Shown here: positions 15,451 to 62,651 of the stretch, one piece after another | How the letters are laid out: every line of letters begins with the position of its first letter | Position numbering within the stretch: position 1 is the first letter of the stretch | Assembly: GCF_003628535.1 (NCBI RefSeq) | Contig: NZ_RBCI01000002.1 | Location: 682,001 to 746,000 of the forward strand | Direction of reading: 5' to 3' | Source of the DNA: Flavisolibacter nicotianae | Lineage (GTDB): Bacteria > Bacteroidota > Bacteroidia > Chitinophagales > Chitinophagaceae | Length of the DNA: 64,000 nucleotides | Notes under the pieces: model-generated | What the model saw: the letters and a program-made list of their open reading frames with translations, nothing else | The model's database searches: none | What the model was told of the DNA's origin: nothing | Made by a program: the position numbers and the translations under genes

Positions 15451-16437
15451 ATGAAAGCCTTTAAAAGAGCAAACGGGAAGCGGCTATTTTTTGTACCGGT
15501 GATCCTGCTTTTCAGCCTTTGCTGCGAAGCCCAAAAACCGGATACCCTGATCCGGAAACTGGACAGCCTAAGCCAGAAAACCGATAGCGCCGGGAAGCAA
15601 CTCAATAACACCAACCCCAGGGCTTACAACGAAGCCACACAATTTACCCTTTCGTCATTTTTCATTTTGCAGGGTAGTAACCTGAAGCAGGCATTCACCA
15701 AGCCGTTTCACATGACAGGACGGGATTGGGGGAAGCTGGGAAAATTTGTGGTGCTTACCGGTGCGTTATCACTACTGGACGAACCTGTGCAGCGGAGGGC
15801 ACTTGACCTGCGGGAACACAACAACGGGCTGCGGGCCATCAGCCGGCAGATCACCAATTTCGGCGGCATTTACGAAGGCTACACGCTGGGTGCCCTTGGC
15901 GCCTATGGCTTTTTGTTCAAGAACAAAAAAATGCAAACCACCACCCTGCTGGCCCTGCAGTCGTATATCACCGGGGCGGCGGTGGAAAGTGTTCTCAAAT
16001 TCTTAAGCGGCCGGCAAAGGCCTTATGTCGTCAACCAGAAGCAGGTGGAGGCAGAGCCTGCGTTCCGCGGACCTTTTCATGTGATGCGGGATGCCGACGG
16101 CAACCGGCTTAACAGTTCCTTCCCTTCCGGACATACCACGGTGGCTTTTGCCGCTGCGACGGTTTATGCCCTCGAGTACAAAGACCGTCCCTGGGTGCCG
16201 GTGCTGGCCTATTCCGCCGCATCGCTGATTGGCCTGAGCCGCATCACAGAGAACAAGCACTGGCTGACCGATGTGGCGGTAGGCGCCACCCTAGGCTACC
16301 TGACCGGGCGGCAGGTGGTGAACAATTATCACCGGTATGCTAAACTGAAATCGCCAAAACAGACGCGAAATTCCGTTAGCTTTTCGATGGGCTACAGCAA
16401 CGGGCAACTCCTGCCTGGAATGGTGTGGCGGTTTTGA
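15451..16437 (+). CDS. PAP2-superfamily phosphatase
   Basis: A 328-residue protein with a signal segment (to about residue 25, SLCCEAQ) and a C-terminal PAP2 domain. The three phosphatase motifs are visible: KFLSGRQRP, SSFPSGHTT and SRITENKHWLTDV. A Leu/Ser-rich linker precedes the domain. Such proteins act on lipid phosphates (undecaprenyl pyrophosphate, phosphatidic acid) or related substrates in the envelope; the substrate here is not predictable. ATG 15451 is chosen because the signal peptide begins there; the longer upstream frame runs antisense through the dinB start. Confidence 0.88.
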   Translation: MKAFKRANGKRLFFVPVILLFSLCCEAQKPDTLIRKLDSLSQKTDSAGKQLNNTNPRAYNEATQFTLSSFFILQGSNLKQAFTKPFHMTGRDWGKLGKFVVLTGALSLLDEPVQRRALDLREHNNGLRAISRQITNFGGIYEGYTLGALGAYGFLFKNKKMQTTTLLALQSYITGAAVESVLKFLSGRQRPYVVNQKQVEAEPAFRGPFHVMRDADGNRLNSSFPSGHTTVAFAAATVYALEYKDRPWVPVLAYSAASLIGLSRITENKHWLTDVAVGATLGYLTGRQVVNNYHRYAKLKSPKQTRNSVSFSMGYSNGQLLPGMVWRF

Positions 16438-16476
16438 AAACGTGGGATGCGAGACGACAAACGTGAAACGAGAGGA
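16435..16476 (+). repeat. 7-bp-periodic array at the PAP2 stop codon
   Basis: Starting with the stop codon, six successive 7-base blocks share a GnGAnAC-like pattern: TGAAAAC, GTGGGAT, GCGAGAC, GACAAAC, GTGAAAC, GAGAGGA. The blocks are too degenerate for a standard tandem-repeat call but keep phase. Confidence 0.5.
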
Positions 16477-16530
16477 TTGCATTCCCATTCCATGGTTTTA
16501 TGGACAGTGTTCCACCTCACGGAAACAAAA

Positions 16531-16560
16531 AAGTCCTGCATCACTGCAGGACTTTTTTTA
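16531..16560. terminator. Bidirectional terminator between PAP2 and RRM genes
   Basis: AAGTCCTGCA, TCAC loop, TGCAGGACTT, with a run of Ts on the plus side and a run of As on the other, so it serves both converging genes. Confidence 0.9.
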
Positions 16561-16576
16561 TGCGAACGAGATACGA

Positions 16577-16918
16577 TTAATATCTTTTTTTGTAACCGCC
16601 ACCGCCGCCGCTGAAGCCGCCGCCGCCATTACCACCGCGGAAGCCGCCACCGCCACCCTGGCGAGAAGGCTTGTCTTCTTTGGGTTTCGCTTCCATCACG
16701 CGGATGGTGCGGTTGTCAACTGAAGCCTGGTCCAGTTCCGCAATTGCTTTTTTTGCTGCTTCGTCATCACTCATTTCTACAAAGCCAAAGCCGCGGCTTT
16801 TGCCTGTGAATTTGTCGGTGATCACTTTTGCAGATGTCACTTCACCATACTCGGCGAAAAATTCTCTCAAGTCTTCATCCTGAATGTTGAAGCTCAAGTT
16901 GGAAACGTAAATGTTCAT
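16577..16918 (-). CDS. Glycine-rich RRM RNA-binding protein
   Basis: A 113-residue protein with one RNA-recognition motif: RNP2 IYVSNL at residues 3-8 and RNP1 KSRGFGFVEM near residues 40-49. A Gly-rich tail (about residues 87-110) ends in KKRY. This is the cold-shock type RRM protein common in Bacteroidota and cyanobacteria, probably an RNA chaperone. A -7-like box CACCTTTG lies 47 bases upstream, leaving an A/T-rich leader that could fold or respond to temperature; this is inference. Confidence 0.93.
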   Translation of the reverse strand: MNIYVSNLSFNIQDEDLREFFAEYGEVTSAKVITDKFTGKSRGFGFVEMSDDEAAKKAIAELDQASVDNRTIRVMEAKPKEDKPSRQGGGGGFRGGNGGGGFSGGGGGYKKRY

Positions 16919-16964
16919 ACTTTCTTTTAGATAAAAATTAAAAATCTGAGGCGAGGCAAGAAAG

Positions 16965-16972
16965 CAAAGGTG
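16965..16972 (-). promoter_or_regulatory. -7-like box of RRM gene; note on 16919-17234
   Basis: CACCTTTG matches TAnnTTTG with one change and is the same octamer used by the two large receptors at 58854 and 59126. The gene-free stretch 16919-17234 (316 bases) holds this promoter, the desaturase promoter at 17145, and A/T-rich sequence; no ORF or RNA gene was recognised in it. Confidence 0.45.
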
Positions 16973-17144
16973 AAACTAACAGCAGAGAAAAAACGTAGCA
17001 GATTAATTCAACACTTAACCTAATGCGATGCTCAATAACAGAACAAATGTACAGGAATGATACCATCATCGGAAATTTATCTTGTTAAGGAAAGGTTACC
17101 GAAAAATGCGCGGGTTCTTAACAACTTCTCTTAGGGCAATGGCG

Positions 17145-62100: not shown

Positions 62101-62417
62101 AGGACTTCCTGATCCGTGTAAACAAGAAGACCAATACGTTCCGTTTCACAGCCGATATCTACAACTTCGGTAACCTGATTAACAAGAACTGGGGTATTTT
62201 CCGTACCACCAGCAAATCGCTTGGTTCCGGTAACAACTTTGCCCTGCTGACGTATAAGGGTATCGTAGCATCGGGTGCTGATGCCGGTAAGCCTTCGTTC
62301 TCGTTCCCTTACCTGGATGCCGCCAGCCAAACACCGCTGGTGAATACCTTCCAGAACAGCACGAGCCAGGCTTCCCGCTTCCAGGTGCAACTGGGTATCC
62401 GCTATATCTTCCAATAA
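59151..62417 (+). CDS. Oar-like TonB-dependent receptor (plus copy)
   Basis: A 1088-residue paralogue of the divergent receptor: signal peptide ([23 protein letters not shown]), carboxypeptidase-like domain ([29 protein letters not shown]), plug ([37 protein letters not shown]) and barrel ending QLGIRYIFQ. Domain order and length equal those of its neighbour but residues differ widely, so the duplication is old. Substrate is probably peptidic by family. Conserved GTNxYRG and SYERER segments are present. Confidence 0.93.
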   Translation: [1088 protein letters not shown]

Positions 62418-62449
62418 GAGCGAGTAGTGAACAGCAAGTAGCAAGTAGC
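62415..62449 (+). repeat. 7-bp-periodic array at the plus receptor stop
   Basis: From the TAA: TAAGAGC, GAGTAGT, GAACAGC, AAGTAGC, AAGTAGC (consensus AAGTAGC). The same unit occurs on the opposite strand at the fumC end. Confidence 0.6.
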
Positions 62450-62476
62450 CGCTTGGTTCATTTTGCTCTCCAAATA

Positions 62477-62510
62477 AAAAAACCTCCTGAATGTTCAGGA
62501 GGTTTTTTTA
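62477..62510. terminator. Terminator after plus receptor
   Basis: AACCTCCTGAA, two-base loop, TTCAGGAGGTT, T-run on the plus strand and A-run before it. Confidence 0.9.
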
Positions 62511-62556
62511 TTGTTGGCCCTAAAACCAGGAGCATCAATTCGCTTCCTTAAATGCC

Positions 62557-62588
62557 ATAAAAAAAGCTGCACCACAATGGTGCAGCTT
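62557..62588 (-). terminator. Terminator after fumC
   Basis: AAGCTGCACCA, CAA loop, TGGTGCAGCTT; on the minus strand it is followed by a run of Ts. It lies after fumC and its heptamer array. Confidence 0.85.
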
Positions 62589-62616
62589 GATAAAATAAAC
62601 AAACATGCAGTAAACG

Positions 62617-62651
62617 GCTACCCGCGACTCACTACTTGCCACTCGCTAATT
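62617..62651 (-). repeat. 7-bp-periodic array overlapping the fumC 3' end
   Basis: On the minus strand: AATTAGC, GAGTGGC, AAGTAGT, GAGTCGC, GGGTAGC. The first three overlap the last codons of fumC (LASGK and stop), so the array reaches into the coding region. Confidence 0.55.

Follow-up and report, generated by a model that had tools for sequence, protein, structure and literature searches.

Worn heptamer arrays, often in inverted pairs, lie mostly just past stop codons in Flavisolibacter nicotianae and its congeners

Among the longer simple repeats, heptamers are reported to outnumber all other classes in most of the repeat-rich bacterial genomes that have been surveyed, which has been put down to a proposed 7-nt polymerase contact (Mrazek et al., as cited in the excerpted texts of PMC4679880 and PMC4692102). 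In Xanthomonas and Nostoc, arrays of imperfect GGGAATC or GGGGA(C/T)T heptamers lie between genes and form inverted pairs (70 and 75 cases in two species); 8% and 7% of them are found between divergent genes, their length and sequence vary between the two species, and the excerpted text gives them no functional theme (PMC4692102). Cyanobacterial short tandemly repeated repetitive (STRR) sequences usually consist of 7-bp repeats and are capable of forming hairpins, one of them near the 3' end of a gene (PMC2670836, in excerpt). Direct repeats of TAACTGA are known from Beggiatoaceae, cyanobacteria and five Bacteroidetes; in the main species, most of them lie immediately ahead of start codons (PMC4679880, in excerpt). 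Among the repetitive extragenic palindromic (REP) sequences and the GTAG- and CGTC-tagged palindromes, GTAG REPs can provide the stop codon of the flanking open reading frame (ORF; PMC3733652, in excerpt). Here, we describe heptamer arrays at gene 3' ends in a stretch of 64,000 nt from Flavisolibacter nicotianae (contig NZ_RBCI01000002.1, positions 682,001 to 746,000; hereafter the window) and in related genomes. A first-pass annotation, made from the letters of the window alone, had reported nine degenerate arrays of period 7 or 8 at seven intergenic regions. It had mentioned that heptanucleotide STRRs are known in cyanobacteria, which agrees with their published description.

Of the kinds that we found described, the GGGAATC-type arrays from Xanthomonas and Nostoc and the STRR hairpins come closest. 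They are like the arrays described here in unit length and placement, the former also in inverted pairing and the latter in forming hairpins; the features shared with them are 7-bp intergenic tandem units, a preference for the stop side and inverted pairs. As far as the excerpts describe them, the Xanthomonas and Nostoc arrays further resemble ours in being imperfect, in being scarce between divergent genes and in showing no functional theme. However, the family studied there is built from one G-rich, quadruplex-capable unit, whereas we find many unit families. Among the consensus units of 173 arrays from 1.88 Mb, sampled in eight genomes of the genus, GGG or CCC occurs in one, so that our arrays lack the repeated G-tracts of G-quadruplex arrays. 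In addition, most of their arrays occupy the same intergenic position in the two species, in stable-looking regions, while here the spacers are often replaced between species. The STRRs share 7-bp units, hairpins, a location between genes and a 3'-end example, and differ in host group. TAACTGA repeats are likewise intergenic heptamer arrays, but with one fixed unit, in direct orientation and mostly ahead of starts, whereas ours follow stops and are often inverted. TAACTGA itself is absent from our 173 consensus units, three of which lie within one change of it, and its placement is not matched here, as the excess is strongest after stops, though not nil before starts. REP, GTAG and CGTC sequences are also short extragenic palindromes, but as excerpted they form conserved families with a tagged end. 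Our arrays have periodic, locus-specific arms, and a conserved palindrome family, as in REP elements mobilised by their transposases, is not found.

What is distinct here is the free choice of unit, with many families per genome that often change between species, at a fixed period and a preferred place. The units of two arrays lie within a distance of 1 in 8.8% of within-genome pairs, 4.5% of pairs between genomes and 2.4% of letter-shuffled pairs. A genome thus does not use one or a few fixed units, and the earlier statement that each locus has its own holds. Among the titles and opening lines of abstracts listed in a literature search whose scope left out most subscription journals and bioRxiv, we found no account from Bacteroidota of inverted heptad arrays that are anchored at stops and have a different unit at each locus.

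The periodicity is a genome-wide property. Our genus set comprises 18 genomes (G000 to G017), namely the 6.09-Mb genome of the window (G000) and 17 congeners; figures quoted per genome refer to samples of 100–400 kb, not to complete genomes. The ribose-phosphate pyrophosphokinase of the window most resembles, among named records, those of Chitinophagaceae (for instance 80% with Sediminibacterium FEMGT703S and 79% with Flavihumibacter solisilvae), which would place the group in or near that family. Gene calling relied on a simple codon-model script, which gave a coding density of 0.83–0.85 and rough start positions. In pooled samples of eight congeners, lag-7 runs scoring at least 12 occur at 86 of 1103 gene 3' ends, compared with 0.3 in shuffled sequence. 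At the same threshold and the same 3' ends, lag 8 yields 19 runs, lag 9 two and lag 6 none, each against 0.0 in shuffled sequence, in agreement with the 7-base phase, with 8 as a minority, first seen in the window. In 400-kb samples of G000, G003 and G015, the lag-7 excess after stop codons corresponds to z scores of 7.9, 8.9 and 7.7 in tandem and 8.9, 3.0 and 8.5 in convergent spacers, and lag 14 is raised likewise. The first-pass annotation had suggested looking for just such an excess over shuffled sequence. Divergent spacers of these three genomes have a smaller but real excess (z of 2.7, 3.5 and 4.6), and coding DNA in the 400-kb samples has none. G019, which belongs to the same order but another family, shows no lag-7 signal after its stops (z of 0.2 and 0.0). 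Near-perfect heptamer doublets, given as observed/shuffled, number 142/38 in G000, 118/43 in G003, 162/55 in G015, 24/16 in G006, 32/16 in G014, 71/8 in G011, 51/10 in G009 and 48/9 in G016, and are mildly raised in G019 (58/40). Lags 3 and 4 are raised too, G019 included.

The excess begins about 3 nt past the stop codon and is strongest at 3–20 nt, with a second zone some 40–80 nt on. Most of the arrays had been said to begin at, or to include, a stop codon. Their nearness to it stands, but the codon itself is on average outside the period. In spacers longer than 300 nt, the first 60 nt after the stop carry a lag-7 excess of 3.2 (convergent) and 1.9 (tandem) percentage points, and the middle 0.8 and 0.1 (standard errors 0.2–0.6). 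A strict selection-boundary view, in which arrays fill any non-coding DNA, was rejected on this location of the long-spacer signal at the stop end instead of the middle, where genes that escaped calling may weaken it. The earlier report of a preference for gene 3' ends is upheld, with divergent spacers weaker but not empty.

Folding and stem searches revealed that many arrays are one arm of an inverted pair, in which a stop-side arm is followed further on by its reverse complement. This pairing had been overlooked in the first-pass annotation. We counted as heptad stems those with at least 45% lag-7 identity in their arms, a definition set after inspection of the data, and one spacer can yield several stems. 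The genus samples and the window together contain 130 of them: 43 in 223 convergent, 72 in 762 tandem and 15 in 251 divergent spacers. Shuffled sequence yields 0 to 2 per genus sample; in G019, seven were observed against 3.5. Periodicity within the arms is most pronounced next to the stop. In G000, G003 and G015, identity within the arm is 47% at lag 7 and 49% at lag 14 for 66 stop-adjacent stems, compared with 28% and 34% for 131 other after-stop stems and 37% and 40% for 26 stems of divergent spacers. Among 30 loci of one unit family, some of them overlapping and with rough ORF calls, 12 have an inverted partner.

The pairs are oriented with respect to the gene. In 67 stems, the mean purine share is 0.59 in the stop-side arm and 0.41 in the other, and where an array starts within 12 nt of a stop, purines make up more than half of it in 10 of 11 cases in G000, 14 of 14 in G003 and two of four in G015. 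The stop-side arms of the same 67 stems show no enrichment of stop trinucleotides (90, compared with 88.4 after dinucleotide shuffling), and an all-frame stop-codon function was rejected. Of the 47 heptad stems between convergent genes, 18 reach to within 12 nt of the stop codon on either side, where random placement gives a mean of 2.7 and a maximum of 8 in 2000 trials. In 78 stems of at least 21 nt, arm-to-arm identity is 0.81, compared with 0.72 when the order of heptads is permuted and 0.67 between neighbouring units within an arm. The arms thus agree better with each other than neighbouring units do, which suggests, subject to selection bias in the stems compared, that one arm may have been copied from the other.

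In the window, we compared the best lag-7 and lag-8 run of each spacer with 1000 dinucleotide shuffles (two lags per spacer, p uncorrected), and stems starting within 18 nt of a stop codon with 150 shuffles. Six of the seven spacers named earlier contain a nominally significant run; the array at 26029 falls short (p = 0.064). Over all window spacers, lag 7 reaches p < 0.05 in 3/7 convergent, 2/23 tandem and 0/6 divergent cases. A stop-adjacent inverted partner is significant in three of the seven spacers. The nine arrays are not all separate, as those at 38327 and 38680, and at 62415 and 62617, are each two arms of one structure. The best run of either spacer is its first array, and the second arrays were assessed through their pairing with the first instead of a separate run test.

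The most complete example stands between a gene for an outer-membrane beta-barrel protein (59151–62417) and a convergent fumarase/lyase gene (62632–63999, minus strand). Its first arm (62419–62464, plus strand) starts 2 nt past the stop (lag-7 p = 0.003 for the spacer; stem p = 0.007 for 62433–62464, with the partner starting at 62602). The second (62602–62647, minus strand) includes the 62617 array and overlaps the stop and last 16 nt of the fumarase/lyase gene. Between the arms lies an ordinary terminator-like hairpin with an A-run and a T-run (62473–62512, no strand assigned, stem score 18), and a stop-to-stop heptad pair can thus enclose an ordinary terminator. The second pair begins immediately 3' of the stop of the DUF3467 gene (38012–38326) with TGGTnTT-type heptads (38327–38363, plus strand; spacer lag-7 p = 0.002, stem p = 0.007). 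Its other arm (38678–38714, minus strand), which is the 38680 array, reaches across the stop codon of the convergent RadC-like gene (38712–39404, minus strand). The third pair came to light in the present analysis. Its first arm (24874–24893, minus strand) begins within the stop codon of the DprA gene (24892–25992, minus strand; stem p = 0.033), and the distal arm (24746–24765) is part of a period-8 run at 24746–24772 (minus strand; lag-8 p = 0.008, lag-7 p = 0.515), reported earlier as the 24744 array.

The remaining window arrays have no significant inverted partner. An nnnGCTA heptad array (40667–40692, plus strand; earlier 40665) lies between the genes for ribose-phosphate pyrophosphokinase and ribosomal protein L25 (lag-7 p = 0.001, stem p = 0.132). 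The period-8 array at 22894–22951 (plus strand; earlier 22896) sits at the stop of gene 22494–22895 (lag-8 p = 0.001, lag-7 p = 0.172, stem p = 0.974), with a terminator-like hairpin at 23138–23174. The array that lies at the PAP2 stop codon (16435–16473, plus strand) has its lag-7 run proper at 16454–16473 (p = 0.028); its candidate arms 16435–16452 and 16483–16500 are not significant (p = 0.079), and a terminator-like hairpin follows at 16527–16558. The CTGTCAT-type units at 26031–26049 (minus strand; earlier 26029) are not significant alone, and their stem p is 0.364. The arrays had been thought too degenerate for tandem-repeat programs. Tandem Repeats Finder at a minimum score of 30 does list those at 22894, 38339 and 62433, so that this holds only in part. 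The program also lists two two-copy tandem duplications in or at the edge of spacers, 42917–42948 (period 16) and 40720–40750 (period 15). No known RNA family was found in the window at gathering score. The ten array-flanking proteins (PAP2, RadC, DprA, ribose-phosphate pyrophosphokinase, L25, outer-membrane beta-barrel, OmpA/PD40, fumarase, DUF3467 and one without a family) have no common theme.

The position and folding of the arrays pose the question whether they are hairpins under selection in the RNA, at the 3' ends of mRNAs or between cistrons. Akin to REPs, they would protect against 3' exonucleases or aid termination, and their heptad arms would pair in several registers. The stems start close to the stop codon and occupy many short spacers, they tend to recur in the same spacer with another sequence, and after-stop sequence folds more stably than shuffled sequence while divergent spacers hardly do. 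Tandem spacers with a lag-7 array also fold more stably than those without in three of three genomes (mean z of -2.3, -2.4 and -2.3, compared with -1.2, -1.3 and -1.5), which is not so in the convergent spacers of G015. A role in transcript stability has been proposed for the STRR hairpins of cyanobacteria (PMC2670836, in excerpt). However, selection on RNA pairing should leave more G.U than A.C mismatches on the sense strand. Such an excess is present in 581 ordinary tandem stems (G.T 332, A.C 265; p = 0.007) and absent from the 72 tandem heptad stems (65 and 86). The two ratios differ (Fisher p = 0.006), which argues against RNA-pairing selection in the latter. One-sided changes between orthologues give 19 G.T and 16 A.C in heptad stems, compared with 39 and 20 in ordinary ones. 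A T-run directly follows 5 of 72 tandem heptad stems, as opposed to 37 of 157 ordinary tandem stems scoring at least 12, and intrinsic terminators were rejected as a general identity of the arrays. Where a convergent pair encloses a terminator, its arms would not be part of one transcript, and a significant stop-adjacent partner is confined to the three window spacers described above. Selected RNA hairpins are thus a possible but doubtful explanation; as a candidate, RNA stem selection was set aside on a wobble test that is negative for co-directional genes and uninformative for convergent ones. Of the two origins suggested in the first-pass annotation, replication slippage stays a live option, and a transcript-end function, though possible, receives no support from the wobble test between co-directional genes; the interpretation given there is in this sense partly supported.

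A function of the DNA itself would also be compatible with the lack of an RNA wobble signature. Here, the arrays would form cruciforms or be bound by a protein, for example to mark where genes end or to take up supercoiling between convergent genes, with period and symmetry mattering and the unit free. The flush fit at both stops, the highest number of heptad stems per spacer between convergent genes and the unequal purine share of the two arms would all suit such a role, and inverted pairs are known in Xanthomonas as well (PMC4692102, in excerpt). However, 72 of the 130 stems are in tandem spacers, nothing points to a binding protein and the neighbouring proteins have no theme, which makes a DNA-level function improbable.

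The arrays wear and are replaced between species. Mismatches are spread nearly evenly over the seven columns (largest share 0.39, compared with 0.34 at random, in 90 arrays), as expected from wear. In four species pairs, we matched 24, 42, 36 and 31 spacers whose upstream flanks are on average 80–85% identical, and many of the array-bearing spacers cannot be aligned. The pyrophosphokinase–L25 spacer holds different arrays in congeners, several with inverted arms by eye. In another spacer, judged by eye, both arms consist mainly of GTAGTTT-type units in G011 and of ACAGTTT-type units in G016, and a TCTGATG array of about seven units in G016 is shorter in G011 and G009. In the spacer orthologous to G011 sample position 753–849, the heptad hairpin is replaced in G016 by a different-looking palindrome (GTCATTGCGAGG ... 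GCAATGACG). G014 carries a perfect (GTTTGAC)18 array (G014:C9:16878-17003, L281) just beyond a stop-adjacent AGTTTGT array. Both are absent from the orthologous spacers of G006 (85% coding identity) and G000; this comparison used three of five orthologues, leaving aside L284 and L285. The array is a good marker for unit gain and loss.

Some units do recur between loci, which raises the possibility of a dispersed element whose arrays or hairpins are copied from place to place, with a REP-type Y1 transposase (RAYT) or gene conversion as possible means. In G015, the 21-mer GTGAAACGTCAAACGTGAGAC accounts for 20 of 36 matches to the pattern GTSARAC x3, and a GAATAAT-GAACAAG-GAACAAG-GAATGAT-type block is present in at least five spacers (5 of the 28 best G015 spacers), both hints that sequence was copied from one locus to another in that genome. 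Of the 18 genus genomes, 14 contain Y1_Tnp, and shared units are more common within than between genomes. The spacers of one genome also cluster by BLAST (largest clusters 10 in G000, 26 in G003 and 32 in G015), but so do those of G019 (19), which has no lag-7 signal. On the other hand, most arrays in a genome have unlike units, and no Y1_Tnp was found in G005 (100% complete), one of whose spacers has inverted heptad-like arms by eye; a RAYT was accordingly rejected as a requirement for arrays. We consider a dispersed element unlikely as the general explanation. Two places in G006 (G006:C2:77774-77917 and G006:C7:105906-106048) carry similar GTSARAC sets, with two of three 21-mers identical and spacings of 116 and 115, and are perhaps a duplicated stretch.

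Hairpins could also accumulate in the genus through loss of the hairpin nuclease SbcCD. No genome of the 18 in the genus has an SbcD match above the profile cut-off, whereas three of the 11 order relatives do. SbcC exceeds its curated cut-off in none of the 29 genomes, with full-reach matches only in the same three relatives and partial, weak ones in the genus. A short match to the SbcC C-terminus at G015:C1:2182969-2183273 (98 bits over 77 residues) may be a remnant. The order relatives do not bear this idea out, and SbcCD loss as the cause was rejected as very improbable. Five of those without SbcD above the cut-off show little lag-7 signal in small samples: it is little or none in G020, G018, G026 and G024 (z of -1.0, -0.7, 0.1 and 1.2) and weak in G025 (2.9), with 2, 2, 0, 1 and 4 heptad stems, respectively. 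The SbcCD-bearing relatives, also in small samples, are inconsistent, as G028 has a z of 5.8 but no heptad stem in 14 spacers, G027 a z of 1.1 but three stems in 20 spacers, and G019 no signal.

We tentatively favour, at somewhat less than even confidence, the reading that the arrays are worn tandem rows of heptamers, sometimes octamers, often in inverted pairs, and that a process at the DNA level, acting mostly just past stop codons, creates them, brings them into both arms and lets them decay. This reading takes in the period, placement, inverted pairing, flushness and turnover of the arrays and the missing wobble signature between co-directional genes, all of which are observed. On general grounds, nascent RNA past the stop codon would be free of ribosomes, and R-loops or a stalled polymerase may there expose single-stranded DNA. 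Slippage in the exposed DNA would then create 7-nt duplications, the period of which is seen in the arrays. Self-complementary folding could let one arm template the other, giving rise to an inverted pair. Point mutations over all seven columns wear the arrays, which are replaced between related species. A structural function at the 3' end would be secondary.

Several observations weigh against this reading. The observed order of heptads is among the best-matching ones in only 38 of the 78 longer stems, and these were selected for agreement. The wobble difference is limited to co-directional genes: convergent heptad stems have 37 G.T and 30 A.C and ordinary ones 105 and 100, perhaps because both strands are read there. 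Paired changes are clearer in ordinary stems (37, with 8.9 expected) than in heptad stems (13, with 5.5 expected), so co-change in the latter is not special; the underlying alignments are poor where arrays have been replaced, and nine ordinary stems were dropped. The lag-7 excess also extends beyond stop sides, amounting to 2.5 and 1.9 points in divergent spacers of 150–300 nt and 3.1 points ahead of the next start in short tandem spacers. The arrays have no link to the codon adaptation of the upstream gene (108 versus 934 genes, p = 0.20), which an R-loop route might predict, and highly expressed upstream genes were rejected as a determinant on the same measure; upstream gene length is not unusual either. 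A purely mutational process also gives no account of the greater sharing of units inside a genome than from one genome to another.

The main observation outside the favoured reading is the recurrence of one unit family across genera. The GTSARAC x3 pattern matches 8 of the 18 genus genomes. In samples of 147 genomes and 92 genera from the taxonomic family, this unit family recurs in 14 genomes and 13 genera, with 1 to 65 overlapping matches per positive genome, for which mutation alone gives no reason. The reversed control matches two of the 147 genomes, once each. As GTSARAC is the sole unit family searched across genera, its spread is a lower bound. Of 80 named loci, 63 were analysed (the other 17 are all shorter than 12 kb), and six of these have a stop-adjacent stem with at least half lag-7 identity. 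The largest lag-7 excesses among the 63 belong to L182 (Flectobacillus) and L183, with 6.4 and 6.3 points, where the match to the window protein is only 64–66%. Both are far from the group of the window, so arrays may be wider in Bacteroidota.

A more far-reaching proposal, which we put forward as a conjecture with the odds against it, is that a sequence-independent process at gene 3' ends writes mirrored heptad arrays, in which the period of seven and the anchor (stop codon, coding-strand orientation and mirrored partner) are fixed while the unit can vary freely. Such a process would operate in three phyla or more (Gammaproteobacteria, Cyanobacteria and Bacteroidota) and would tie a 7-nt polymerase or template-switch step to the place where translation ends and transcription continues. 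With a free unit sequence, a fixed period and a preferred position, the process is separable from any one sequence, so that the questions of why seven, and why after stop codons, become testable by strain comparison.

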